A DNA stretch of 25,798 nucleotides. Source: Pezizomycotina sp. ARF18 (lineage: Eukaryota; Ascomycota). Every line of letters begins with the position of its first letter. Position 1 is the stretch's first letter. Shown here piece after piece: positions 8,498 through 25,640 of the stretch. Both the position numbers and the translations under genes were made by a program. The stretch covers positions 177,152 through 202,949 of the forward strand of contig AZLU01000065.1 of assembly GCA_002224055.1 (NCBI GenBank). The letters are read 5' to 3'. The notes under the pieces are model-generated. The model searched no databases. It worked only from the letters and a program-made list of their open reading frames with translations, and was not told the origin of the DNA.

Positions 8498-11179
8498 TTG
8501 TTACTTTGAATGCAACACAAAAAAAAAACAGAACAAAGAAAATTTATCCAAACAAGAAACGCGAGATCAATTGGGTAGGGTCCTATGGAACTAAGGGTGG
8601 CGAGTGCCGCAAATTCAAGTAAAGGGCTTCTGCTTTCAGGGTACAACGACACGAGTCGGTCTAAGCTTAGAGCTTTCCGAGATCCTGGCCTTGGGATCGA
8701 GAACGGGAGATGATATATTACGGGTGCAAAGGGAAAAAAAAAAAAAAAAACCCGAGCGGACAGCGCTCGAGAAGCAGGCCGAGTTTTTTTAAGATTTGGG
8801 GGAGAATCGGTTTGAGAAAATTGGCAAGAAAACAAGAGGAACCACGAAGATAGAAGAAACCGAAGGTTTGTGAGATCCTGATCCACCTTACGATCAAAAA
8901 TAAACTATCACAAAGGAATAGGAGTTCGATCAGAAGAAAAGATGTCTAGAGAATTCGATGGTGAGAAAATCCCAAGACAAAATCGAATGACAAATGGAGA
9001 AAAATGGAATGAAAAAAAAAAAAAAAAAAGGACGGTAGGGCGGGATAAAAAATTTTTTTTTAATAAGGAAAGGACCAAGACAAAAATTCTATTGACCCTC
9101 TCCTCTCTCTTTCCTTTCTTTTTTTCTTTTTTTTTCCCCTACCTAACTCGATGGCGTCCAAAACTTAACACCCAACTACAACCACATTGGTACTTTTTTC
9201 CCTTCTCCTTTTTCACCCTAAGGATACCGAGGAGCGCAGGGTGTGAGAAAGATATATAGAATTTTTCCTAACAGTATATACTTCGCAGGACAATAGGTTA
9301 TATATTACTTCGTGGGGGATGGGCAAGAAATACTGCTAATGAGAAGGGATCCCAGCGCTAAAAAAGATACATTCGACAACTCGCTATCGCTAGTACTGCG
9401 TATGCATACTGCAAGTATTTAAATTAAATGAACAGGCGAGAATACGAAAGCAAAGCCTAGTAAAGGGTGGGTGAGCGTTGCCGAAAAATATATAGCAATA
9501 ATAACACTAGTAATAATACTGACTAATAATAATTGTCTTCCACGGTTCCACCTGCTAGCAGTATTCGCGCCAACGACAAAGTGGGGAAAGAGCGACGTTG
9601 CCTCTTAAAAAGGAATAATCAATCGAAGCGGAAAAAAAAAAGAAAAGGAAAAAAAAGTCTCAGCACAGCGCACCCGCAATAGAACTAGGATCTATCAATT
9701 CGAAATCTAGTTCACATATACTGGTGAGGTCTCGGACGGCGTATTGGACAGCCCTACAGAGAATAATATACGTCTGGTCCACGAATAATTGAGAGACGAC
9801 GACAGAGCGGAGGTGAGTCTGTACGTTTTCCTATTCATTCAAAATCGAAAAAAAAAAAAAGTTCTTTGATCCTCACATGCTTTTCCAGATTGTATTTTCC
9901 CTTTCCTTTTTTTTATTTTTATTGAATACCTTGCGGAGGACACCCCATGTATTTACTGTACCTATACATACACATGCAGACGAAGTGTTGTCAATGTACA
10001 TACCTTTTCAATATGCCGGTTGGTTCCGTTCAGATACGATTGAAGAGGACCAGATCATTCGCTCGTTCAGAGAAAAGATGTACAGGTAAATCGTCACCAT
10101 CGCCGTCATGTCTCCTCGCCGGCCGTTTCCTTTCCTCCCTCTTTTACCCACGATGTCTCTCTTTTCTCCGCCGGTAAATTACTCAATAACCGATACGTCT
10201 TACCGGCGTGATCAGTTTCCTCTGCCAGCAGACAGCACTGAACAGCGTTGCTCTCTAAGGCGCTCTTGCCTGAGCCAGCAACAACACTATAGCAAGTACC
10301 ACCGCGTCTACTCAAAGCTACCTTCTATATACGTCCGTGCCTGTCAAATATTTCTTTCCAACCAATCTGCTCGAGTGGTACAGGTATCCTAAGATGGCAG
10401 CCCGCGGCAATTCCATGCCATTGAGGGCCTCCTCTTGTTGGCACGTTGACGGAACGAAAAAGCCATCTACTAGCCGTTATAGCTATACAACGTCCACCGG
10501 CCGTTGGAAGAGAAAAAAAAAATAAAGGCTCGGGGAAAGTGAGGCTAAAATATATGTCAGAAACGACTATCCGATCTTATTTAAACAATTTGAGAGATGC
10601 TGTTGTCCAGGATTGGCGCCTAGCAGCGATCTTGGATAAAAGAGATGCCGTTCAGAAAGAACAAAGAAGGGAAGATTAAAAATATAGCGAGCGCAATACG
10701 TAATTTAAAAAGGAAAGAAAGAAGCATTTTGGTGTTCTTCTGTTTGATGCTCATATGATCAACCCCATCTCGAGCGTTATAAGATTCAAATTAGGGTTTC
10801 CCTTCCAGACGCCGTTCACGCTGGCTTGCTGCGTTCGTAAGCCTGACATGCATAGCATCCGTTTGTTTGCAAGGGTGTTAGGGTTTATAACTGAATGTTA
10901 ATATACTGCTACTTTCTGCTTTACTCGAATTACTGCCGGTTTACTACTGCCTTCCTGTTCGAGATTCTCCTATCAGCTATCCAAATGACTACGCTGATAG
11001 GGATTTATACTCTCGCTACGTGCGCTCACACAGGTAAGTATAAATCATCAAAGATAGAAGGACGGTAAAAAAGAAATTGAGATGCGTGGAGACAAGAAAA
11101 AAAATTTTTTTTTTTTCTCGATAGAAAAGCGGTGCGGTCGGGGAGGATTCAAGATCCAAAAACGTTAAAGAAGCCGTGA

Positions 11180-11193
11180 TCAGTGATCACTGA
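11180..11193. promoter_or_regulatory. 14-bp perfect palindrome
   Basis: TCAGTGATCACTGA is a perfect dyad with a central TGATCA. It could bind a dimeric factor or be coincidental. It is not close to any gene I can support. Confidence 0.4.
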
Positions 11194-11650
11194 CTCTTGT
11201 TTATTGGCGCGAGGTGTTATCTGAATCAATTTGATCGATAAAGAAGAACTCTCTATTGTTTTTTTATTTTAGTAATGTCGTTTACGGTCTCACGTCTATT
11301 CCTTTTATAGAGTTGACCCTTTTGTTATAGAAATTTCGAAAACGGCGCGCTATTCCGTTGGCTATAACCTTTAAGGTTTGATATGAAGATCACGAATTAT
11401 GATCACCGGACAAGAACAGCAAATCAAACCTCGCGAAGTTTTCAAGAAGTGCTTACCAGTACAGATATTAACTAGTGCTGTCTAATAGCGTGTTTTTCCT
11501 TAAGCAAGCAAGAGAATGCATTGATTGTGATCCTTGCAAGTCTTACAAGCAAAAAGACGACCAAAAAAATTATCACACAAAAGAATTAAAAAAAAAAAAA
11601 AAAAAAGCTAAATTCGATCAATTCTGTTTTCGACTTCGCATAATTTTTAC

Positions 11651-11702
11651 CCTCCTCCCCCCTTCCCTTCCTTCGCCTTCCTTTCCGTTCCCTTCCCTTC
11701 CA
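11651..11702. repeat. CCTTCC-rich pyrimidine tract
   Basis: A polypyrimidine tract built from CCCTTCC/CCTTC units on the plus strand, purine-rich on the other strand. Simple-sequence DNA of unknown role. Confidence 0.8.
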
Positions 11703-11866
11703 TACTCCACTTTCCACGACCGCCCATCCTTGCTTTTCCTTACGGACGAAAACAAAAAAGAGAGAGAGAGAAAAAAAAAAAAAAAAAAAAAAAAAGGAAA
11801 GGCAGATGGCTTGCATTTCCCACCGACAATGTGAATCTGCAGAGACGCGAAGTAGGTGTGTATAAA

Positions 11867-11895
11867 GTACAGTACAAAAACGTCTTGTACTGTAC
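11867..11895. repeat. perfect 11-bp inverted repeat (hairpin)
   Basis: The arms GTACAGTACAA (11867-11877) and TTGTACTGTAC (11885-11895) are exact reverse complements separated by 7 nt. AATAAAATAAAG, which resembles a poly(A) signal, follows immediately on the plus strand. It may be an RNA 3'-end hairpin or a protein-binding dyad. No adjacent coding region is identified. Confidence 0.75.
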
Positions 11896-13231
11896 AATAA
11901 AATAAAGAAGGGAAAAAAGAGTGAGATTTATACTTTTATTCCCCCACTTCCTCCTCCTCCTCCCTCTTCCGAATCTGTTGTGATTCTTGTAAATAAGGAG
12001 CAGCTCAAAAAGATGAAAAAAAAAAAGAAAAAAAATTTTAAAAAAAAATACGGAACCGTCGGTCCGGCCTTAGCGCTCCCGTGGAATTACAAACGATCCA
12101 AGCGATTTAATTGAAATGCTAAATGTATCTCCGCTTTTTCCTAGGCTCCTTCGATTCGTTAAAATCTCTTCTCTCTTTTTTTAGAAAAAAAAAAAAAAAA
12201 GAAAAAACTTGAGACACAAGCTGTACTGTTAAATGCTAAGGATTAAAATGGAAAAGCTTCTTCGAAAGCAAGAACGGAGGGAAATATCAAATTCGGCCTT
12301 AGTGAAACGACTCATGCAATGTTCTTCGTAAAAAGAAGAAATAACGGGAGGAAGAAAAAGGATCTCGAAGGGCTTAACTTCAATGATCAATCCCTAGAGC
12401 CTTGGAAGATTAACAGAAATTAATCCTATAAATATCGCTCTTATTTACTGAGAATATATACAATTTAGCCTAAAAGTGTTATTCGCGAATGATTGGATAA
12501 AAGACGATACTCTTTACGATAGTCTTTCCTTCTTGGTGTTAGAAATACGAACACACGCCCTTCTTCTCGCCCCGTTACTGAAATTTACGCGATGTTATGA
12601 TCAATATACAGCGGTAAAACCCCACAAAAATCCTTTTAGACTAGCCAAACAAAATTAAATGCACGCGATATATCACACGCTTAACCACGTGGCAACTGTT
12701 AATCAGAGTGCTATTCGCCTTATTATAACACGCTCGCTTTTTTCGATACGATCTTCCACGGTCTAGAACTCCTTGGTCCGTTTCGTGAACGAACTAAGAA
12801 GGAACCCCCTTGTTCTTAAGCCTTCTTAATTAAAAAATTAGTCAACAGCGACTTGTATCGCGAAGCTATTAAGCTAGCTTCTTCTCCTTTAATCAAAAAA
12901 TAGGGAAGATTAGGGTGGTTCAATGAGGATGAGGAAAACAATGTTCGAGAGCTGTGCAAAACGGAAAGAAGAAAGTTAGTTCTTCACATGATAGAACATG
13001 GTCCCACTGTATTCCTCGCGCGATTACAGCTACCGCGCCAATGCATGCAAGGATCCTAGTTTAAAAAAAGCTACCGTTTGTTATTAATGAATTTCCTATC
13101 GTCATGTTCTTGACCTTTATTTTCTTTGTATCGCATCCGATAGGCGAGTCAAAAGTTCGCTTTGCTATTAGACAGTTATATTATCACCAATTTCTAGGCC
13201 ACTAATCAATGCAAGATCACTTGAATAAATC

Positions 13232-14248
13232 TCACTCCCCGTCGACGCTATCTTCCTCCTCGTTGGCAGAGACGTACTCGTCCGTGTCCTCCTTCGAAGC
13301 CTGCCTCGGTTCGCTGTGCTTGTACGGCTTTGCGATCGTGAGGTTCAGAACAATGTTGGGAATTTGTTTTCCGGGCTCTTCGTCGTCTACGGAGATGCTA
13401 ATGTCCACGTGGAACCACTCCCGGCGCCTCTGTTCCAGGATAGCGTCCGCGATCGAAAGCACATTCCCAGAGCGTCAGACTGGAGAGTGTCCATGACGCT
13501 TTGAAGGTTGGTTGCGAACGACGAGGTGGCGTTGCTGTCCCCCTGGAGCTGGGAAGGGGTCGGATAGAGACGCAGTAGTTCAGGATCGAGTAGTCTTCTC
13601 CGAGAGTTACGACGTGGTTTCGATGGGGCGCGTGGGAAAGACGGGCTTGACCAGTGACTTGATAAGTGATTTGATGTCTGGGGCGGAAAGTTTAGCTCAA
13701 ATGAATAGTTTTTAATGGTTTGGTTGTTTTTTTTGGGGGGACTATACCGTTACCAGTTGCAGGCTGCTTCTTACGCTGCCTCCTCGAGGTAGCAGGCTGC
13801 TTTGGATCTTCCCTACCCTTCCCCTTAGGCGCAGGCGTTTTCTCCGCATCCTTGGAAGCCGTAGCTCTGGTGACTGCCCTCATCCTGGCCGGTTTCTCAG
13901 ATGCATCTGCGTTCTTATCAACATTCCTACGGCAACGCTTCTAGAAGTTTGTTAATGTTAAAAATACTTTTGCGGGATGAAAAAAATAAAGTAAAGGTCA
14001 TTCAGAACTTACGTTTCCTGACGCCCTGCTCTTCCTTTCCATCTTGTGCTTGTCGCTCTGCGACTTGTAGGAGCTGAGTACCTGCTTCGTCAGACGCACG
14101 ATTTCTCCGGTGTTGTCGCCGAATCGATTGTCATCAACGTACGAGCCGGATTGATCTCGTCTTTCAAGGCTTTGATTTCATCGGTTGCTACGTTGAATTT
14201 ATCTGCAACCCGAAGGAAAGAATTTATACACTTGCGTTTTGGCGGCAT
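13232..14248 (-). CDS. hypothetical protein A of a tandem paralogue pair; one intron, frameshifted
   Basis: I do not recognise this gene. The start is the ATG at 14248 (MPPKRKCINSFLRVADKFNV) and the stop is TGA at 13232-13234. An intron fits at 13941-14012 (GTAAGT donor, TTAAC branch-like site, TAG acceptor) and keeps phase 0. The first exon looks helical or coiled-coil (KALKDEIN, TGEIVRLTKQVLSSYKSQSD). The second opens with a very basic Lys/Arg/Pro linker with KGKGRE and RRQRKKQ, a likely nuclear localisation signal. A C-terminal domain follows, read across frameshifts near 13690, 13615, 13550 and 13480. It contains DIKSLIKSLVKPVFP, TLGEDYSILNYCVSIRP, LSIADAILEQRRREWFHVDI and an acidic tail. 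This domain aligns with that of the gene immediately upstream (14538-15391). A DNA- or chromatin-associated role is only an inference from the basic linker. Confidence 0.68.
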
Positions 14249-14537
14249 TATTAACAAGCCAGAAAGTCAAGCTTAACGTGTTTGTTGATGTTACTGCTAT
14301 AGCATTCTTTTTGTTTCTGGAGGAAAAAAAGAAAAGAAGAAGAAAGAACCCTTATAGTCAACGACTGCCATTAAACTTTCGTGCACATTTTATTAAAGAG
14401 GATTTTTAATAGCAATATTATCAGTAAATGCGGTGCATTTTACCGCAATCAAAGTCAATGAACTCGAGATTCCTAGTAGTAATAGATTATATACATAATG
14501 TAGCTCTCCATTTGTGCTATCAAATCCAATGTTGTAT

Positions 14538-15391
14538 TCACTTGTCTCCGTCATCTTCGATATTAAGCCCGTACGATTTACCAGGTGACGTTGGTGACGC
14601 TGCATCTTCCCCCGCCTTAGCTAGCTCCTCTTCGTCCTCCGGCTCAACCTCGCCTATCCTCGCAATGGCAAACATCACTTTAACGCACGGGCTCCTCTTA
14701 TTCATCCTAAGCGGCGGCCTCGCCCTGTCCGTCGTCGATCCAAGCTTTGATATCCACGTTAAACCACGCGCTGCCCCTTTCTTCCGAAACCGCGGTTATA
14801 ACAGAAAGAATAACGTCTATGCTTTGCATGTCGAGGTGGCTGCCGAGCACCTGGCAGAGGTAGTCCTGGAAGTCGATTTCGCTCCCGTTTTGATGGTGAA
14901 CGGGTACAGCGTCGTGAAATTCGATATCGAGAGCGACTGATGTCCAAGGTGAAGCTGTGGAGCTCGATGGCGGCGTCCGAGCGCTCCGGCTTGAGGAGCT
15001 TCTTGATGTCGGTTTTGAACGTGGGCGGGACCGGCGCTGAGGTGGCTGCTTCCCTGGGACTTTCTGGTGGTTCGTTGATGTTCTAAAGGAGATATTGTGT
15101 CAGAATTATAGAAAGGTTTATACATTGCAAACGACGTAGCCATACTTGTGGTGTTTGCTTGTTGGTCTAAAGACTTATTATTGTCATCTGGGTTCGAAGG
15201 ACAGCCGCGAGAGCTGAACCACCGACAGGGAGAGCTTTTGCGTCCTCTGGCTGCTGTATCGCGTTGATCTTGGCGGAATTACTTGTGGACGCTGGGCCTG
15301 ATCGAGTCTTTCCCCTGAGGGCTCCAGAGCAGGTTTAGTTTCTACTACCTCTCCTTTCGGCTCCCGTTCTTTGCGGCAAAGCTTCGCTCAT
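14538..15391 (-). CDS. hypothetical protein B of a tandem paralogue pair; one intron, frameshifted
   Basis: I do not recognise this gene. The proposed start is the ATG at 15391 (MSEALPQRTGAERRGS) and the stop is TGA at 14538-14540. A probable intron at 15083-15145 (GTATGG donor, TTTAG acceptor) separates a low-complexity N-terminus from the conserved part, which begins NINEPPESPREAA. The C-terminal domain contains TFKTDIKKLLKPE, HQNGSEIDFQDYLCQVLGS, VILSVITAVSEERGSAWFNV and VKVMFAIARIGEVEPEDEEE, and an acidic tail. The blocks DIK-LLKP, a long amphipathic helix, WF-VDI and a final E/D-rich tail match protein A in the same order, so the two genes look like old tandem duplicates. It lacks the long basic linker of protein A. 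Frameshifts are needed near 14960, 14930, 14820 and 14710. The N-terminal exon is the least certain part. Confidence 0.66.
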
Positions 15392-15874: not shown

Positions 15875-17980
15875 TTATTTCTGTTTCGCTTCGTTGGTCT
15901 TGTAGCTTATGAAATGTCCCAAGTTCAACTGCACCTCGTCCGCCCTCTCCCTCAGCTCCGGCTGCGTCCTCTTGTCGACGCGCTTTGCCATGGCTTTAAC
16001 CTTGGGAGCCAGTTTCTTCAGCTCGGCCAGGAACCCGCGCTGCACGAAGACGGGTGCATCGTAATCGAACGCACTGTCGGCGTATATTTCGTATAGGATG
16101 TCTAAAGCCTCGACCGCGGGCTCGGCCGGCGTCTTTGCAGCGAAGATACCGCGTTGATGAGGAAAACGCCAATCTCAGCGTTGACGTCCACCTGCCTTGG
16201 GCCATGGCGAGGTTCCCGGTGACGCCGATGCACTTTGCCTTGAGCTCTGCGTTCTCTGTCGCTGCATAAAGCGCCATGAAAGCCTTGTGCTGCCCGTTGC
16301 TGACGTCGAGCTGTCCCTTTGTAACCTTTGCGAGGGCCCAGCAGAGCCCGGCCAGCGTCTCCGCAAGCTCCACGTCGGCTGTGTTGCCCAATAGCACGGC
16401 GTAACGCCCTTGATCCAGATTTCTGTGAGAACTGAGTCCAGTACTGCTTGAGTGCAGGTGGGAAATTGTCTACGAGCTCTACGACAATCCACGCCAGGTT
16501 ATTCAGGACCGTGAGAGCCCTCAATTGTACCAGCGAGCCTAACGTCGTGGTAGGAGGCACGGAAACAATGCTCAGCACCGAAACCGCCACGTCTTCTAGG
16601 AATAGTTTGAGGATCTGCTCTGTTGCCTGCGGTACCTGCTGTTTTGCCTTTACAGCGCCGATGGAGCCTTCCTCGCCGATGACCTCAGCCATGTCTTCTT
16701 CTATCTCGTCCATATCGTCGTCGTCTCCATCCTTGCCCTCATCTTCATCCATCTCGTGATCTTCCTCGTTTGCCTCGTCTGCGCCCGCGGTGGTGCCGTT
16801 CGGTCCCTCCTCGAGGTCAAACTGAACATTCGTTGCCAGGCTCGCCAGCACTTCGAGTGCGGTTTCCAGGACGAGCGCTTGCGTATTTAACGTCTGGTTG
16901 AAATTCTGGTTCGCTTTCAAGATCTGCGTGAGGGTAGAAGTGATCTTCAGCTCCGAGATGCCAAAGTTTTCTGCCAAACCTTCTTGAAGAAGGTCCATCT
17001 CGAGGCCTAAGGAGTGGATGACGCCTAATTGGAGTTAGAGGTTAACGATAGCAGAAACTTGAAGGAGTTTACATACCGCACGTCGACACAGTCCTCAGCT
17101 GGACGAATAAATCGTCAGAAAGGACCTCTGAGAGCTTGACCAGAAGTTCCATGTGCTCGTCCCTCGTGACGAAGCGCTTCGCGACATCTTCATTCTCCTC
17201 CACGACGGACAGGAGACACATTCCAGAGCTCGCCTGCACCTTTTCGGGGCCTTTGCGTCAGGATGGAGAATTCCCATTAGGAACTCTATTATTTCCGGGA
17301 CCGCGACTTCATCAAGTGCTTTCTGGTTTGTTTCGCTTTAAATCGGGGTGTATGTTAGCATTGAATACTCCGAGGAGTAAAATAAAGGATTCCCGTCGCA
17401 TACCAGATGTTCTTTAGCAGGTATATCAGAATATCTGCGCATTCCCACAATATAACCTGCAATTCTTGGGCTATCGACGTGGGGTTCGTTGCAATATTCT
17501 GGATGCCGATTTTAATCTATAATAAGATCGTTAGAAGATAATCTCGCTTCTTTTCTGCTGTTCAATTGATTTCACAAAGCTCACAACATTCGCAACAGCC
17601 TCCTTAGCCGGGACCAGTATTTTCTCCCTGTAGAGGTGCACGGCCAAATCGTAGCCTTCTCCCTCTACAAGGCTTCTCAGCGCCGCCCACGTGAGCATAA
17701 CGTTCTCGTCCGTCGGTCCGTCAGGGAACTTCCATGAGCTTCTTGACGATTTTCTCTTTCAGGAGGAGCTTCCTGCAGGTGTCGTCCTCGACCAGGTTCG
17801 GGATCGCGGCCAGGGAAAGCTTGCGGTCCTCGGTTGCGGATGCGATGCCGGCGACTATAGGTAGGATCTTCTGGTCGCGGATAATCTCGTTCGTCGCGGA
17901 GTTGATGTTGATCGCATTCGGTTGCCCGCGCGCGGGCCGTGGGAGCTGCGGACTGGCTCTTTGCGCTTTGATTTGCCCAT
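15875..17980 (-). CDS. SYO1: symportin Syo1, ARM/HEAT-repeat importer of Rpl5/Rpl11; three introns, frameshifted
   Basis: Syo1 binds ribosomal proteins uL18 (Rpl5) and uL5 (Rpl11) in the cytoplasm and carries them together into the nucleus with Kap104, feeding 5S RNP assembly (family knowledge). The start is the ATG at 17980 (MGKSKRKEPVRSSHGPRAGN), a short basic N-terminus as expected for the import signal. The stop is TAA at 15875-15877. Introns fit at 17517-17584, 17323-17403 and 17025-17076, leaving about 635 residues, close to the family length. Helical repeats run throughout, for example KLSLAAIPNLVEDDTCRKLL, NVMLTWAALRSLVEGEGYDL, IKIGIQNIATNP and ALTVLNNLAWIVVELVD. A long Asp/Glu-rich loop (about 16670-16790) matches the acidic loop that helps bind cargo. 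The C-terminus ends LNLGHFISYKTNEAKQK. Frame changes occur near 17922, 17728, 17404, 17245, 16420, 16190 and 16110. It is transcribed divergently from ESF2. Confidence 0.86.
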
Positions 17981-18333
17981 TGCGATTTTAGGATGACTGA
18001 ATAGGTCTTTGAAGTAGAAATAGGGACTGAAGGAGTTGAAGAAGCGTTTTAAAAAGTCAAACGGTCAATTGGGTTTTTGAATTCTTTTTAAGCTTCTGCG
18101 TTTTGCTATAAAAAGTTTTTTTCTTTTTGCCGCTCCCGCCTGCTGTTTTTAAAGTGCAGGAATAAGCGAAAAGATTCCTTATCGATAAAAAATAGGAAAT
18201 AGGAAATAGCACGTGCGGCCCAAAAAAAAAAAGAAAAAAAAAGAAAAAAACGAGTCTCTCATTTTATCGCGGTCAAAACTTTTACAATATTAAAACGATC
18301 TCAATCTATCACTACAAGTCCAATTCATACGCC
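17981..18333. promoter_or_regulatory. shared divergent promoter of SYO1 and ESF2
   Basis: 353 bp separate the two start codons, so both genes must use this interval. It contains CACGTG at 18210-18215 (embedded in GCACGTGC, the Cbf1/bHLH E-box), a repeated ATAGGAA element just before it (about 18191-18208), and an A-rich tract (about 18221-18250) that could keep the promoter free of nucleosomes. The role of each element is inferred. Confidence 0.7.
18210..18215. promoter_or_regulatory. CACGTG E-box (Cbf1/bHLH-type)
   Basis: A palindromic hexamer between two ribosome-biogenesis genes. Cbf1-type factors bind this site, and in some yeasts they act at ribosomal-protein promoters. Position and palindromy are seen; binding is inferred. 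Confidence 0.45.
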
Positions 18334-19499
18334 ATGCCCCCCTCGGATAGCAAGCAATCGAAACGCAACGAATGGCTCTCCATCGGCGACAGCGACACTG
18401 AAGATGATAGCGCCGGTCACGACTCTGAGGACGACTTGCACGCGAGCAGGGCCGCCGCGACGGCCAGCGTAGATCCTCGAAGTGGCGGAAGGTAGAGCAA
18501 GAAGACGAAACTTCCGATGACGAGGATGAAGCAATCGAGAATAGAGCTACGGGAAATACAAGAGAAGACGATGGCAGCGACGATTACGAAGGTGAAGATG
18601 ACGACGAAGATGACGACGACGGCGGGTTCGACAAGCTCGTTGAAGCCGCAAAGTCAAAGTACGGCAAGCTCGACGCAACATCCAATCGCTCGGTAACGAC
18701 GGGCGACGATTCAATAATAACAAACCCGTCGCAAATGAAAGCCCTCACGAAATCGGAGCTCCTCGCCTCGAAAGCGCGCGTGAAAAAGACCGGCGTCGTC
18801 TACCTGTCCCGCATACCACCGTTCATGAAACCGCAAAAGGTGAAACACTTACTTTCGAGGTTCGGCACCGTCGGGCGCATATTCTTAGCCCCCGAGGATC
18901 CTAAATCGTACAAGAAGCGGGTTAAATTCGGCGGAAACAAGAAGCGCAACTTTGACGAAGGGTGGGTAGAGTTTGCGAGCAAGAAGCACGCCAGGCTCTG
19001 CGCGGAGACGCTGAACACGCAGCAGATCGGCGGGAAGAAAGGGAACTACTACTACGATGACGTGTGGAATATAAAGTACCTGCCGAAGTTCAAGTGGCAT
19101 CACTTGACGGAGCAGATCGGTAAGCGCACTAGTCTATTAATTTATTATTGTTGATGCTAACTTTTTCTAGCAAACGAGAACGCTTCGAAGCAAGCAAGAC
19201 TGCGTGCCGAAATCGCCCAGTCGACCAGGGAGAACAAGCGGTACATACAGAACGTGGAACGGGCAAAGATGATAGAGAACATGCAAGCGTCCAAGAAGAG
19301 GAAGCTCGGATCCGAGGGCCAAGCCGCTGGCGAGTCTACTGCAAAGGAGCCCAAGGTTGAAATACGGCGCCAGTTCAGACAAAACACGGCAATCATAGAA
19401 GGCAAGATCGGTGGTAAAGCTAAAGGCGGCGGCGGCGGCGGCGGCGCCGACCGGGATCAGCAAAAGGCACTTCAAACGCTCCTCGGAAAGATTTTCTAG
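18334..19499 (+). CDS. ESF2: Esf2/ABT1 family pre-rRNA processing factor; one intron, one frameshift
   Basis: Esf2 (ABT1 in animals) is a nucleolar RNA-binding protein of the small-subunit processome. It stimulates the helicase Dbp8 and is needed for early cleavages giving 18S rRNA. The start is the ATG at 18334 (MPPSDSKQSKRNEWLSIGDS). An acidic Ser/Asp/Glu-rich N-terminus runs to about residue 110, as in the family. The RRM-like domain follows, with GVVYLSRIPPFMKPQKVKHL, FGTVGRIFLAPED, NFDEGWVEFASKKHARLCAE and the signature YYYDDVWNIKYLPKFKWHHL. A 51-nt intron (19120-19170, GTAAGC donor, GCTAAC branch site, TAG acceptor) interrupts the helix after the RRM. The tail is basic, with an RRQFRQN segment, a poly-Gly run and a final LGKIF. 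A single frameshift near 18475 separates the acidic N-terminus from the rest. The stop is TAG at 19497-19499. About 370 residues; slightly longer than yeast Esf2. Confidence 0.94.
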
Positions 19500-19554
19500 A
19501 TCTAGATGCATGTTTGTATAATATTCTGTAGCTTAATACATGTAATAATAGCTT

Positions 19555-21284
19555 CTACTCTTTGTCCCGCACCGTCATCTCATCAAACTCGTCCAGTAAC
19601 TCATCCACGCTAATCTCCGGCAGACTATTCTCATCCTCGTCATCGTCTTCGTCCATCTCAGAAGACGGTGCAGCAGGCTTTGCGGGAGCTTCCATCTCGA
19701 CGCCGTGCATCTTCGTCGTGTGCCTCGTAGACTCCCTGCCGGACTTGTACAGCTGCAGGGTGCTCCTGAGGTCGGTGTCCTCCTCGATATCCCTGAGGAA
19801 CATCTCGAACTCCCTCTCCATGCGGTCCTGGTCCGCCTTCTTCGGCAGGAGCTCCCTTCGTCCTTGGCCATGCGCCTGAGCTTCCACCCCTGTTCTTGTT
19901 CTTCTTCTTGCGCTGGTAGTGCTTCTTGACGAGCACGACCTCGGGTATCAGGCTCGGTGGCTCTTCTCCAGCTGCTCGAACTCCCGGTTGTTGAAGTTGT
20001 GTCGGCGAGGAAATAGCCCATCGCGGAATCTCCCGGGTGCAGGAGGCCGCCGAGGTGCGTCCTGATCAGGTACGTCTTGTCGCTGGTCCCATGTCCGAAG
20101 CTTTGGCAACCTGCACGTCCGCAAGCACCCAGTGACCCTTTGTCGGGCCTAGCGGCTCGATATCTAGCACGATAAACTCTGTAAGGTCTGTGGCGTCCGC
20201 CAGGGAAGTGAAAGGTTCCCTCCAGTACACGGGCGTCGAGATTTCGCACGTCGCCAGCGTATTCGGGTTAACGTAATGCGTGTTGTTCCCTACCCTGTAG
20301 CACAATATCATCGGATCTATATTTCCAGGCTCCTCGCGAGCTTCATCGGCAAGCAAACGAGATCATCCTTACATATCGGTATCAACTCCACCGAGTACGT
20401 GAACTTGAAGCTCTTCGTGCTCGTGTGGATATCGTGCGATATCAGCTCTTCGCTCTTCTTCGTCTTTATCGGCGCCACGGAACCTAAAAAATCCAGCAGT
20501 TTCTGCGCGTGCGTCCTCTGCAAGAAGAAAAAATCCAACCCGTCTTTGACTTCCTTGATGTTTATCGTATCTTTGTGCGCGTTGTGCTTCAGTATCAGCT
20601 GCTCGAGGTACAGGAAAGTCCGCTTGTGGGGCACCTTCTGCCGCATCTGGATGCACGCCCTCCAGGTATTTGCCGTGTAGCTCTTCGCGCAGTCCGGGCA
20701 CTGCTGGTAGGCGACGACGTACTCGACCTCGAAGCTCTGCTGCAGTATCGTCTTCTCGAACGCTTCCTGCTGGATGGTGATCTTGACTTTGACCCTGCGG
20801 GAGTGCGGCTCCGTCCATATGAAGCTTGCGTCGATGATGCGGACCTTCGACAGTCCCCGGAGCTTGCGGAGGCATAGCGCCAGCAGCTCGCGGCTTTCCG
20901 GTGCGGCTTCGATCCAGTGCGCGGGAGGCTGGAGGTAGCGGTCGCAGCCGCGGCAGAAGTGCAGCGTAGCCTCACGTTGGACTCCCTCGCTGATGTCGAT
21001 GTTTAGCTTTATGCAATCGTAGCACATTGTGACGCCGGACGTTCCTAAACTGGCGATCAGTACCGATTCATTCAAAATGTGAGGATATAATGGAAATTTA
21101 CCATCCATGGGAACACCGCAGTTGCAACATAGAACTCTGCGAGGATGAGCAATAACCAAGTTAGTATTCTTTTTTTTTTTTTTTTTTTTTTTCCCCAAGG
21201 AAAACAGAGCTGTGAGTAAAGGTCTTACGTTGCGGCTCCTGCTGGCGCACTCTGCGGGATTGGCATGGGAGTGTCAATCTCCAT
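19555..21284 (-). CDS. NMD3: 60S ribosomal export adaptor Nmd3; two introns, frameshifted
   Basis: Nmd3 binds late pre-60S subunits and carries the leucine-rich signal recognised by Crm1, exporting them from the nucleus. The start is the ATG at 21284 (MEIDTPMPIPQSA) and the stop is TAG at 19555-19557. Introns fit at 21137-21228 and 21045-21101, leaving about 527 residues, as in yeast. The N-terminal zinc-binding region shows VLCCNCGVPMDG, MCYDC, FCRGCDRYLQPP and QQCPDCAKSY, that is, four CxxC pairs. Near-invariant family stretches follow, such as VRIIDASFIWTEPHSRRVKV, VPHKRTFLYLEQLILKH, DGLDFFF and DIHTSTKSFKFTYSVELIPI. The C-terminal part has VVLVKKHY, a basic KRK-type cluster, and an acidic tail with EISVDELLDEFDEM, the position of the nuclear export signal. 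Frameshifts are needed near 20322, 20095, 19997, 19958, 19886 and 19855. It converges with ESF2 and diverges from NOP53. Confidence 0.97.
21045..21101 (-). other. 57-nt stop-free intron in NMD3
   Basis: A GTAAAT donor at 21101 and TTTAG acceptor ending at 21045 join G to GA to give MDGTSGVTMCYDC, matching the spacing of the first two CxxC pairs in Nmd3. The intron is 57 nt, divisible by three and without a stop codon in the coding frame. It therefore looks like coding sequence to an ORF finder (19 extra residues containing FPLYPHILNESVLIASL). Confidence 0.75.
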
Positions 21285-21658
21285 TTTTTAAAAAAGATAT
21301 AGAAATCTGAGTGTATTCGTATATCGAGGAGGGTAGGAAGAAAGAAGTAGATATAAGGGTATATGATATGAAGAATGTGGAAAGGTTGGATTTCTTATAG
21401 AAGGGTGGAAGGATAGACGTATGACTGATAGGAAGAGAAGCTTTCTTTGCTCGCTAATCGATAAGAAATTTTCTTTCCAAATTATTAATTTTTTTTTTTT
21501 TTTTTTTTTTTAGGGCGTGGTGTTTTGGAGGAGCTGCATTTAGTGATTTTTGTGCCGCCGGGAAAATTTTCTCCCAGCAATTAAAAAAATAGTACCACGA
21601 AACTACTTACTTCACGGCGAAACACGATCAACAACGCCGGCGACCAGCAGCATCGACA
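21285..21658. promoter_or_regulatory. shared divergent promoter of NMD3 and NOP53
   Basis: 374 bp separate the two start codons. The interval contains two A/T-symmetric elements, GAAATTTTC (21465-21473) and the perfect palindrome GAAAATTTTC (21562-21571). Both resemble the rRNA-processing element (RRPE) core of yeast ribosome-biogenesis promoters. A long poly(T) tract (about 21488-21511) lies between them. The function is inferred from position and resemblance. Confidence 0.65.
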
Positions 21659-23101
21659 ATGGCTTCGACTACGGCAAGCAAGCAGACGTCCCGCAAGGGC
21701 AAGAAGGCCTGGCGCAAGAATGTCGACGTCTCAGACATCAACGAAGGCCTCGAGAACCTGCGTACCGAGATAATCACCGGGTAAACTGAGAGCACTCCCT
21801 CGTATTTTACGACTTTCTTGAGCTAACAATTATCTACATAACAGTGGAGTAATCGCCGAAAAGCCCGACGATGCCCTCTTCTCCGTCGACACCGTCGGTT
21901 CCGCCGCGATAAAACACCGCGTCCGCCGCGACCACAAGCCCCTCCGATGCGACGAGATTCTCGCGCAGCGCTCCGCCGTGCCCGCGCTCGAGTCCCGCAA
22001 GCGCTCCGCCAACGCGAACTCCAATCGATAATAGGCGACGGCATCGTCAAAAAGAAGAAAAAGCACGAACACAGCTTACCGTTCAAGGAGCTGCAGCGGC
22101 TGCGGAGGATAGCGTACGGCGACGGGGTCGAAGGGCAGGAAGTCGCGATGAAAGGGTCCGATGGCATGAACTCGAAGAAGGAGCTGTATGATCCCTGGGG
22201 AGCATTGACGGGAAGAGGAGGAGGAAATGCTGGAAGAAGATGATGCGAAGGAAGATAAATACTCCTTCCTCGAGAAAGCGAAGCCTAAAGTCATCCCCGT
22301 CACGATGAAGAAGGAACCTACGTCGTTGGCGGCGTCGAAGGCCCCCATACCCGCCGTCCGGTTGCCTGACCCGGGATATCGTACAATCCCGAGTTTGAAA
22401 AATGGGACGAGCTGCTGACCAGGGAAGGCGACAAGGAAGTGGAAGCGGAGAAGAAGAGACGGGAGGCAAAAGCGTACGAGGCTCACATACTGAAAATGGC
22501 GCAGGAAGCCGAACCGGAAGAGGAGGGCTCGTCATCGGATGAAGAATTAGAGGAAGACGAAGAAAACGGTAAAGAGGGTGCGCAGTTCGTCAAGAAGCGC
22601 CCGGAGCGAAACACGCAAGCGCAGCGGAACAAAATCAAGAGGCGCAAGGAAGCGGAGCGGGAAATCAAGCGGCTCGAGCACATCAAAAAGCAAAAGGCAC
22701 AACTGCTGGCCATCAAGAAACTAGCTCGGCCGTCGAAGAGAAAGAGAAGCTGAAGCTGCAGCAGCTTGCTACCCGAGCACCGCCGTCCCCGACGCCGACA
22801 TTGAAACACTGAGGAAAAAGAAGTTTGGGAAAAAGACAGTAAGTTTAATCATTCACGATATAATCTTCCGGCGATACTAACAATCTATAGCATTCCGCAA
22901 GCACCGCTGGAGCTCAAGCTGCCCGAAGAGCTCACGGATTCACTCCGCCTCCTGAAACCCGAAGGGAACCTTGTCCGCGACCGCTACAGGAGCTTCCTGG
23001 AGCGCGGCATACTGGAAACTCGCGCCCCGGTATCGCACCGCAGGAAAGCCAAGACGTACACGAGCGAGAAGTGGTCGTACAAAGATTGGACGTGGTCATA
23101 G
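21659..23101 (+). CDS. NOP53: ribosome biogenesis protein Nop53 (PICT1/GLTSCR2 family); two introns, frameshifted
   Basis: Nop53 joins nucleolar pre-60S particles near the 5S RNP and uses an N-terminal arch-interaction motif to bring in the exosome helicase Mtr4 for ITS2 removal. The start is the ATG at 21659. The family opening is clear: SRKGKKAWRKNVDVSDIN. Introns fit at 21781-21844 (GTAAAC donor, GCTAAC branch site, CAG acceptor) and 22839-22890 (GTAAGT, TACTAAC, TAG), leaving about 443 residues, close to yeast (455). Later family features are ILAQRSAVPALESRKR, LPFKELQRLRRIA, ELYDPWGA, the SYNPEFEKWDELL block, a long charged helix rich in Lys/Glu (EAEKKRREAKAYEAHILKMA), and a C-terminus with LPEELTDSLRLLKPEGNLVR and EKWSYKDW just before the stop at 23099-23101. 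Frameshifts are needed near 22020, 22206, 22375, 22722, 22772 and at the second splice junction. Confidence 0.94.
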
Positions 23102-24800: not shown

Positions 24801-25640
24801 CTACGGGGGAGTTCCTAGGGATGTCGTTGGAATTCTTTCCCGGAGCGTTTCCTCGGACCGCCTGAACTTCCGTTTCGCGCCGCCGTTGGTCCACCCTGTC
24901 GGTCCTTTCCCAGTAGCTCTTGTTGATGCTGAGGAGCGCTCTTCCGACTCTTCCTCCCAAACTTCGCCGTTGTTCCTGCGGTAAACGGGCCAGTCCGGGG
25001 GGTAGCCGATTCCCTCACAACCAGACGAGCGTAGGCCAGCACGACCAGACAGAAGTACACCCTGATCATCCAGAAGAAGCAGGGATGACGATCGTCGACG
25101 GCGACTCGGGCTGCATTACGCCGTTGCTCAGGGTAGCGCTCTGCGAGAGCGTCTCCATGCCGCTCCAAAACACCGACAGCGTCCTGGGGAGCCTTGATTC
25201 CCGAACCCGGGTAAACACCTTCCTCGCTCGCGGTGTGTTGAAGGACCGCCGGAGATCCCGGCAATGTCCTCGATCATCTGGCCCGCCTTTCCGATCCAGG
25301 GCCGGTAGAGATGGCTGGTACTACTGCGCGCGGCGTGATGCTGGAGACGAGGAGGAACCATGGTGACGGCGAACAGGGAAGTATATATCGCGCTGATGAC
25401 GGCGTCGACAACGTTAGAAAAATGCATAGGCAAGGTTCGGCAGCGGAGTTTGCTTCCGAAGGTGTGGTAGGACGTAGAGAAATACCCCGGTGGCGAGGAG
25501 AGAGTATATATACATCGACTCTGCAGGGCTGATATTTCCGCTCCGGTGAAGTGGCGAGACACAAAGGCTCCAGACACCTTGTTAAGAGCACACCAGGTAA
25601 TGACTCGGCCTATTTCGAGATCAAAAAGGCCAAGGAAGCG
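24801..25640 (-). CDS. KEI1: Kei1-like regulatory subunit of inositolphosphorylceramide synthase; 5' exon missing, frameshifted
   Basis: Kei1 is a Golgi multi-pass membrane protein that partners Aur1 in IPC synthase, the fungal sphingolipid enzyme, and helps localise it. The visible main exon starts after a CTAG acceptor ending at 25641, preceded by a GCTAAC branch site (25666-25671), and opens RFLGLFDLEIGRVITWCALN, the conserved family start after the PRP segment. Following segments are FTGAEISALQSRCIYTLS, a third membrane segment with VVDAVISAIYTSLFAVT, a Ser/Pro-rich luminal loop with METLSQSATLSNGVMQPES, the last membrane helix WMIRVYFCLVVLAYARLVVR, and a basic cytosolic tail with GRALLSINKSYWE and KRKFRRSEETLRER. 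It ends GTPP with the stop at 24801-24803. Frameshifts occur near 25465, 25364, 25300, 25085, 25000, 24965 and 24890. The first exon with the initiator ATG is not identified in the remaining 150 bp and may lie beyond the window. Confidence 0.8.

Follow-up and report, generated by a model that had tools for sequence, protein, structure and literature searches.

Four neighbouring genes in a 25,798-bp stretch of the Pezizomycotina sp. ARF18 genome, hereafter the window, form two divergent pairs, SYO1/ESF2 and NMD3/NOP53, that meet tail to tail. We consider it probable that their two divergent intergenic regions are ordinary bidirectional promoters of the fungal ribosome-biogenesis regulon which lie next to each other. 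Both of these regions contain a GATAAG core, a variant of the PAC box known as 'PAC2'. The arrangement belongs to a type that is already known from fungi, and the control motif in the promoters has been described previously. Ribosome-biogenesis genes are known to pair, and this locus is an unusually long instance; its host is apparently a filamentous fungus and not a yeast, and it ties a four-gene run to the little-studied PAC2 motif. The window comprises positions 177152–202949 of contig C65 in a 46.4 Mb assembly of 408 contigs, and its right edge is the contig end (202949). In window positions, the features are as follows.

15875–17980, minus strand: SYO1 (symportin 1), import and assembly chaperone of the 5S ribonucleoprotein; three introns by eye, frame broken
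17981–18333: divergent promoter of SYO1 and ESF2, 353 bp between start codons
18178–18184, minus strand: CGATAAG (PAC2 core GATAAG), 197 bp from the SYO1 ATG and 149 bp from the ESF2 ATG
18334–19499, plus strand: ESF2/ABT1-like RRM protein of the small-subunit processome; one intron by eye, one called frame break
19500–19554: convergent gap of ESF2 and NMD3, 55 bp between stop codons
19555–21284, minus strand: NMD3, 60S export adaptor; intron after the first exon by eye
21285–21658: divergent promoter of NMD3 and NOP53, 374 bp between start codons
21459–21472, plus strand: PAC2-RRPE module, CGATAAG plus AAATTTT with zero spacer; CGATAAG 174 bp from the NMD3 ATG and 193 bp from the NOP53 ATG
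21562–21571: second RRPE-like site, GAAAATTTTC, in the NMD3/NOP53 promoter
21659–23101, plus strand: NOP53, pre-60S processing factor; introns by eye, frame broken

The start codons (17980 on the minus strand for SYO1, 18334 on the plus strand for ESF2, 21284 on the minus strand for NMD3 and 21659 on the plus strand for NOP53) confirmed the two divergent pairs and the gaps of 353 and 374 bp given in a preliminary description of this DNA. The stops read from the sequence (SYO1 at 15875–15877, ESF2 ending at 19499, NMD3 beginning at 19555, NOP53 ending at 23101) reproduced the 55 bp that it had placed between ESF2 and NMD3. Its claim that no unrelated gene intervenes agrees with the coding-frame model, which called no further coding stretch between the four genes, and with a tRNA scan and an Rfam scan at gathering score, which returned zero hits over the whole window, intron-borne RNAs included.

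The gene names proposed in that description were recovered through Pfam for SYO1, NMD3 and NOP53. NMD3 matched PF04981 with an E-value of 3.5e-81 (272.7 bits versus a cut-off of 24.9) and additionally carries OB-fold and SH3 domains (PF21192, E 3.1e-11; PF21193, E 2e-6). The whole genome yielded one NMD3 match and no second copy was found in it; a search for relatives of one NMD3 fragment among viral contigs and prokaryotic genomes found none. NOP53 matched PF07767 on three fragments (E 2.7e-21, 1e-15 and 0.0061), of which the two strong ones reached 76.8 and 58.5 bits against the Pfam cut-off of 24.9. For SYO1, PF25567 (TPR_SYO1) matched at 15878–16174 (E 2e-17, 64 bits versus a cut-off of 27), and the best structural relatives of the region 16105–17034 were the Syo1 structures 5aff and 4gmn (E about 5e-5), which we take to be Chaetomium entries. 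For ESF2, Pfam gave RRM_1 only (E 1.4e-6), the second exon matched no Pfam family and a PDB search revealed no useful solved relative. The name ESF2/ABT1 is presumptive and combines the RRM_1 match with likeness to the family sequence. Both members of the NMD3/NOP53 pair are ribosome-biogenesis genes, and for SYO1/ESF2 the same statement hinges on ESF2.

GATAAG has been described as the PAC2 variant in ribosome-biogenesis genes of Sordariomycetes and Leotiomycetes, where it occurs alongside an A/T-rich RRPE; the available portion of that article gives PAC2-RRPE modules a mean upstream position of -178 and a median distance that averages 38 over species (PMC3612091). The GATAAG sites at 18178 (minus strand) and 21460 (plus strand) lie within about 200 bp of the start codons on both sides, that is, 149–197 bp from all four ATGs, as expected from the module portrayed there, although PAC2 was defined in those two classes and the host may belong to another. 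As in that module, AAATTTT adjoins GATAAG in the NMD3/NOP53 promoter, where it is found at 21466 and again at 21563–21564, whereas the zero spacer falls short of the median distance given there. Over the whole window, CGATAAG and ATCGATAAG have exactly two copies each, with one copy per divergent promoter. For two CGATAAG copies in a window of this length, the probability of finding one in each promoter is 4e-4. The SSF1 protein of this genome, found at another locus, matched 8i9r_Cg best (E 5.8e-50), ahead of the SSF1 entry 6c0f (E 8.2e-36); we take the former to be from Chaetomium and the latter from yeast. Together with the short introns (by eye), the structural matches of SYO1 and SSF1 suggest that the host is a filamentous ascomycete.

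If the two regions act as bidirectional promoters, the PAC2 site near the middle of each would be so placed as to act on both flanking start codons, and the NMD3/NOP53 promoter would add its RRPE-like elements. We infer that growth-controlled factors bind PAC2 and RRPE and so would raise or lower both members of a pair together, and that such co-expression may be of selective benefit. In S. cerevisiae, the readers named in the available text are Dot6/Tod6 for PAC and Stb3 for RRPE (PMC3612091). Co-regulation of each pair through its shared promoter is plausible, since the pairing of ribosome-biogenesis genes is documented, conserved divergent pairs of fungi tend to be functionally related and both promoters contain the PAC2 core. 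Genes of this kind are known to be neighbours often, which would account for the tail-to-tail meeting of the pairs, and extra control over all four would be unneeded.

The genome as a whole contains the PAC2 module in excess. We counted the pattern CGATAAG-N0-30-AAATTTT and used the reversed pattern as control: the module occurred at 54 sites versus 26 for the control (binomial P 0.001), whereas the version with canonical PAC occurred at 30 sites versus 24 (binomial P 0.25). Thus, the excess of this genome is in the PAC2 form and not in the PAC form, in line with the available description of the module (PMC3612091). A set of 90 genes was then assembled by merging the listed matches to families rich in ribosome-biogenesis factors (25 DEAD, 3 Brix, 9 GTPase and 53 WD40). 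Among these listed matches, 4 of the 90 had a PAC2-RRPE site at most 1.5 kb upstream of the matched domain, versus 0.16 expected (P 2e-5, or P 1.4e-3 if upstream regions were three times richer in the motif). One such module, at L043:4261–4277 (C213:51260–51276), lies upstream of a DEAD-box gene that we take to be DBP3-like. Of the other three genes, the GTPase gene on C143 is not NOG2, whose N-terminal domain maps to C6, and the WD40 genes on C33 and C94 were not among the 3 Utp12-domain matches.

Several observations weigh against assigning both promoters to the regulon. The seventh base of CGATAAG and the 0–30 spacing were fixed after the promoters had been seen, and with the published 6-mer GATAAG, 2 of the 12 window sites fall within the promoters (P 0.04). 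AAATTTT is absent from the SYO1/ESF2 promoter, which, unlike the module in the available text of PMC3612091, has a PAC2 core without it. Comparison of the two promoters revealed two shared 9-mers, one of them CTTATCGAT with GATAAG on the other strand, and 1.0 would be expected with equal bases. The reversed control differs from AAATTTT in its A/T steps. Furthermore, one of the four genes behind the upstream result, that at L043, was readable, and the surrounding DNA was examined at 4 of the 54 module sites, namely at NMD3/NOP53, the DBP3-like gene, C278 and C223. At the C278 site, some 2 kb beyond the 3' side of a Brix gene, the nearest named open reading frame (ORF) was a fragment of tetrahydrofolate dehydrogenase, and the DNA around the C223 site gave zero Pfam matches. 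Of the 18 DEAD/Brix genes that were read, 3 had CGATAAG no more than 1 kb upstream of the matched domain, with about 1.9 expected (positions by eye). Two controls were too small to tell: the module was upstream of none of the 23 mitochondrial-carrier genes (0.04 expected), and none of the 30 canonical-PAC sites was near genes of the 90-gene set (about 0.09 expected). Finally, the extended motif ATCGATAAGNAAT was dropped as a regulon signature (18 sites versus 13 in the control). Its 16 other sites, with 123 ORFs of at least 85 amino acids, gave 13 Pfam families with zero classical ribosome-biogenesis families among them. MYG1, which has been linked to RNA processing, was left out of this count.

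Some of these observations fit neutral adjacency, by which compact spacing would have juxtaposed four housekeeping genes with core promoters of their own, the motif being incidental or a GATA-factor site. The two shared 9-mers are close to the one expected by chance, and ATCGATAAGNAAT is not specific to ribosome-biogenesis genes. On the other hand, just 54 module sites were listed over 46 Mb and one of them falls in the NMD3/NOP53 promoter, and the expected number of such gene runs, treated below, speaks on both sides. We regard neutral adjacency as possible but rather unlikely.

That ribosome-biogenesis genes pair, as the preliminary description had stated, is well documented. Of the 282 members of this class counted in S. 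cerevisiae, 44 immediately adjoin another, and tandem, divergent and convergent orientations occur there and in other eukaryotes, according to the available portion of the article (Arnone et al. 2012, PMC3500266). Pair identities shift between lineages, as far as the accessible text of two articles extends (PMC3500266, PMC7911571). The genes described here resemble these pairs in being immediately adjacent, and NMD3 is paired in both settings, in S. cerevisiae with DBP8 (PMC3500266, available text). They differ from the pairs given there in forming a run of four with other partners. Conserved divergent gene pairs of fungi, such as RRP3/SSF1, tend toward related functions in the available text of PMC2871058, and the pairs of the window are likewise divergent and functionally related. 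The printed Table 1 of that article, in which some rows are unnamed proteins, does not list SYO1/ESF2 or NMD3/NOP53 by name. A literature search over titles and the starts of abstracts found no four-gene cluster like SYO1/ESF2/NMD3/NOP53, and the two papers returned for NMD3, NOP53 and ESF2 did not, judged by title, concern gene order.

How often four such genes should fall in a row depends on the assumed neighbour preference. With random placement of 200–280 genes among 10,000–13,000 (assumed numbers), 0.002–0.006 runs of four would be expected per genome, which argues against neutral adjacency. With a neighbour probability of 0.08–0.12, taken from published pairing, 0.1–0.5 runs per genome would be expected; given such a mild preference a run of four is not extraordinary, which favours neutral adjacency. 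Since the published pairing leads to this expectation, the run is uncommon but foreseeable where a scan seeks striking windows. The earlier characterization of the block as unusual therefore holds in so far as such runs are uncommon, but their expected frequency follows from what is published on pairing.

The preliminary description had also suggested a co-regulated domain. Its within-pair component is plausible in view of the PAC2 cores and the published pairing, but a domain of four genes is unproven, as the pairs stand tail to tail with promoters of their own. Such a domain would require one chromatin environment, or one promoter that reaches across the convergent junction. A precedent for the latter exists in S. 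cerevisiae, where PAC/RRPE upstream of MPP10 act on a convergent neighbour across about 4 kb (PMC7653285, available text), and the SYO1/ESF2 promoter, lacking AAATTTT, could lean on the NMD3/NOP53 promoter. However, each pair has its own promoter and its own PAC2 core, and nothing at the locus demands a domain; we judge this explanation improbable. We give even less credence to a selected four-gene domain in which the two PAC2 promoters act as one neighbourhood and the gene order is kept across Pezizomycotina. If the order were conserved, the locus would provide a compact natural test of cross-influence between neighbouring bidirectional promoters.

The reading frames of the four genes are interrupted. 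Frames were followed with a model that is based on codon usage and learned from the very sequences to which it was applied; a short intron can pass as a switch, and all frame-switch rates are upper bounds. The window had 22 switches called in 9.5 kb of coding sequence, and the four genes 13 in 5.4 kb, or 2.4 per kb (3 in SYO1, 1 in ESF2, 4 in NMD3 and 5 in NOP53). Were the genes decaying copies, the breaks would mark four pseudogenes, and their rate is indeed somewhat above that of 19 other loci (L033–L051; 109 switches in 62.9 kb of coding sequence, 1.7 per kb). However, the rate at these loci ranges from 0.5 to 2.8 per kb, and at their overall rate at least 13 switches have a probability of 0.16. 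The breaks elsewhere are taken as real too, because simulated intron-less genes gave 0 false switches in 45 kb. In addition, the main domain of NMD3 is uninterrupted, with the frame breaks falling outside it, and the genome has yielded no second NMD3. As other parts of the assembly show breaks at about the same frequency, we rejected the pseudogene explanation, which we find hardly credible. Sequencing indels are likelier than pseudogenes because the break rate does not stand out from that of the other loci, and assembly-wide indel errors are likely the simplest explanation. Gene annotation of this genome has to allow for such uncorrected indels. The gene ends are unaffected by the frame breaks, and therefore the distances between the genes stand. 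On C120, C356, C44, C61 and C10, among others, DEAD-box matches were likewise split between frames, with overlaps or gaps of less than 30 bases. The parts of the assembly that were read show about two frame interruptions per kb throughout, and introns do not account for all of them.

Within the visible sequence the block comprises four genes, and its neighbours there were not recognised as ribosome-biogenesis genes. On the right flank, a fragment at 24818–25273 (minus strand) matched PF08552 (KEI1; E 7.6e-6, 26.3 bits versus a cut-off of 25) over the final 24 positions of a 181-position profile, near the contig end, and is probably KEI1, a subunit of inositolphosphorylceramide synthase. The left-flank fragments that were scanned gave no convincing Pfam match. 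Among the coding stretches on that side, two at 13235–15100 (minus strand) each contain a similar short W-F-(H/N)-V-D-I (by eye), have no convincing Pfam family and are perhaps diverged duplicates.

Elsewhere in the genome, SSF1 lies at L036:1093–1842, with a divergent helicase about 5 kb away and a trypsin-like ORF between them (L035–L036, C152:27042–33686). We read this helicase as RRP3 from its N-terminus. A PDB search at 1e-20 with the C-terminal piece of this helicase and with the DBP3-like one came back empty. The members of the conserved pair RRP3/SSF1, as given in the available text of PMC2871058, would thus be near each other here but not adjacent. The 10 kb adjoining the window on the left (C65:167152–177151) had 27.5% G+C and zero coding sequence called; within the window, G+C per kb was 37–61%. 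AT-rich blocks of this kind are left by repeat mutation in ascomycetes.

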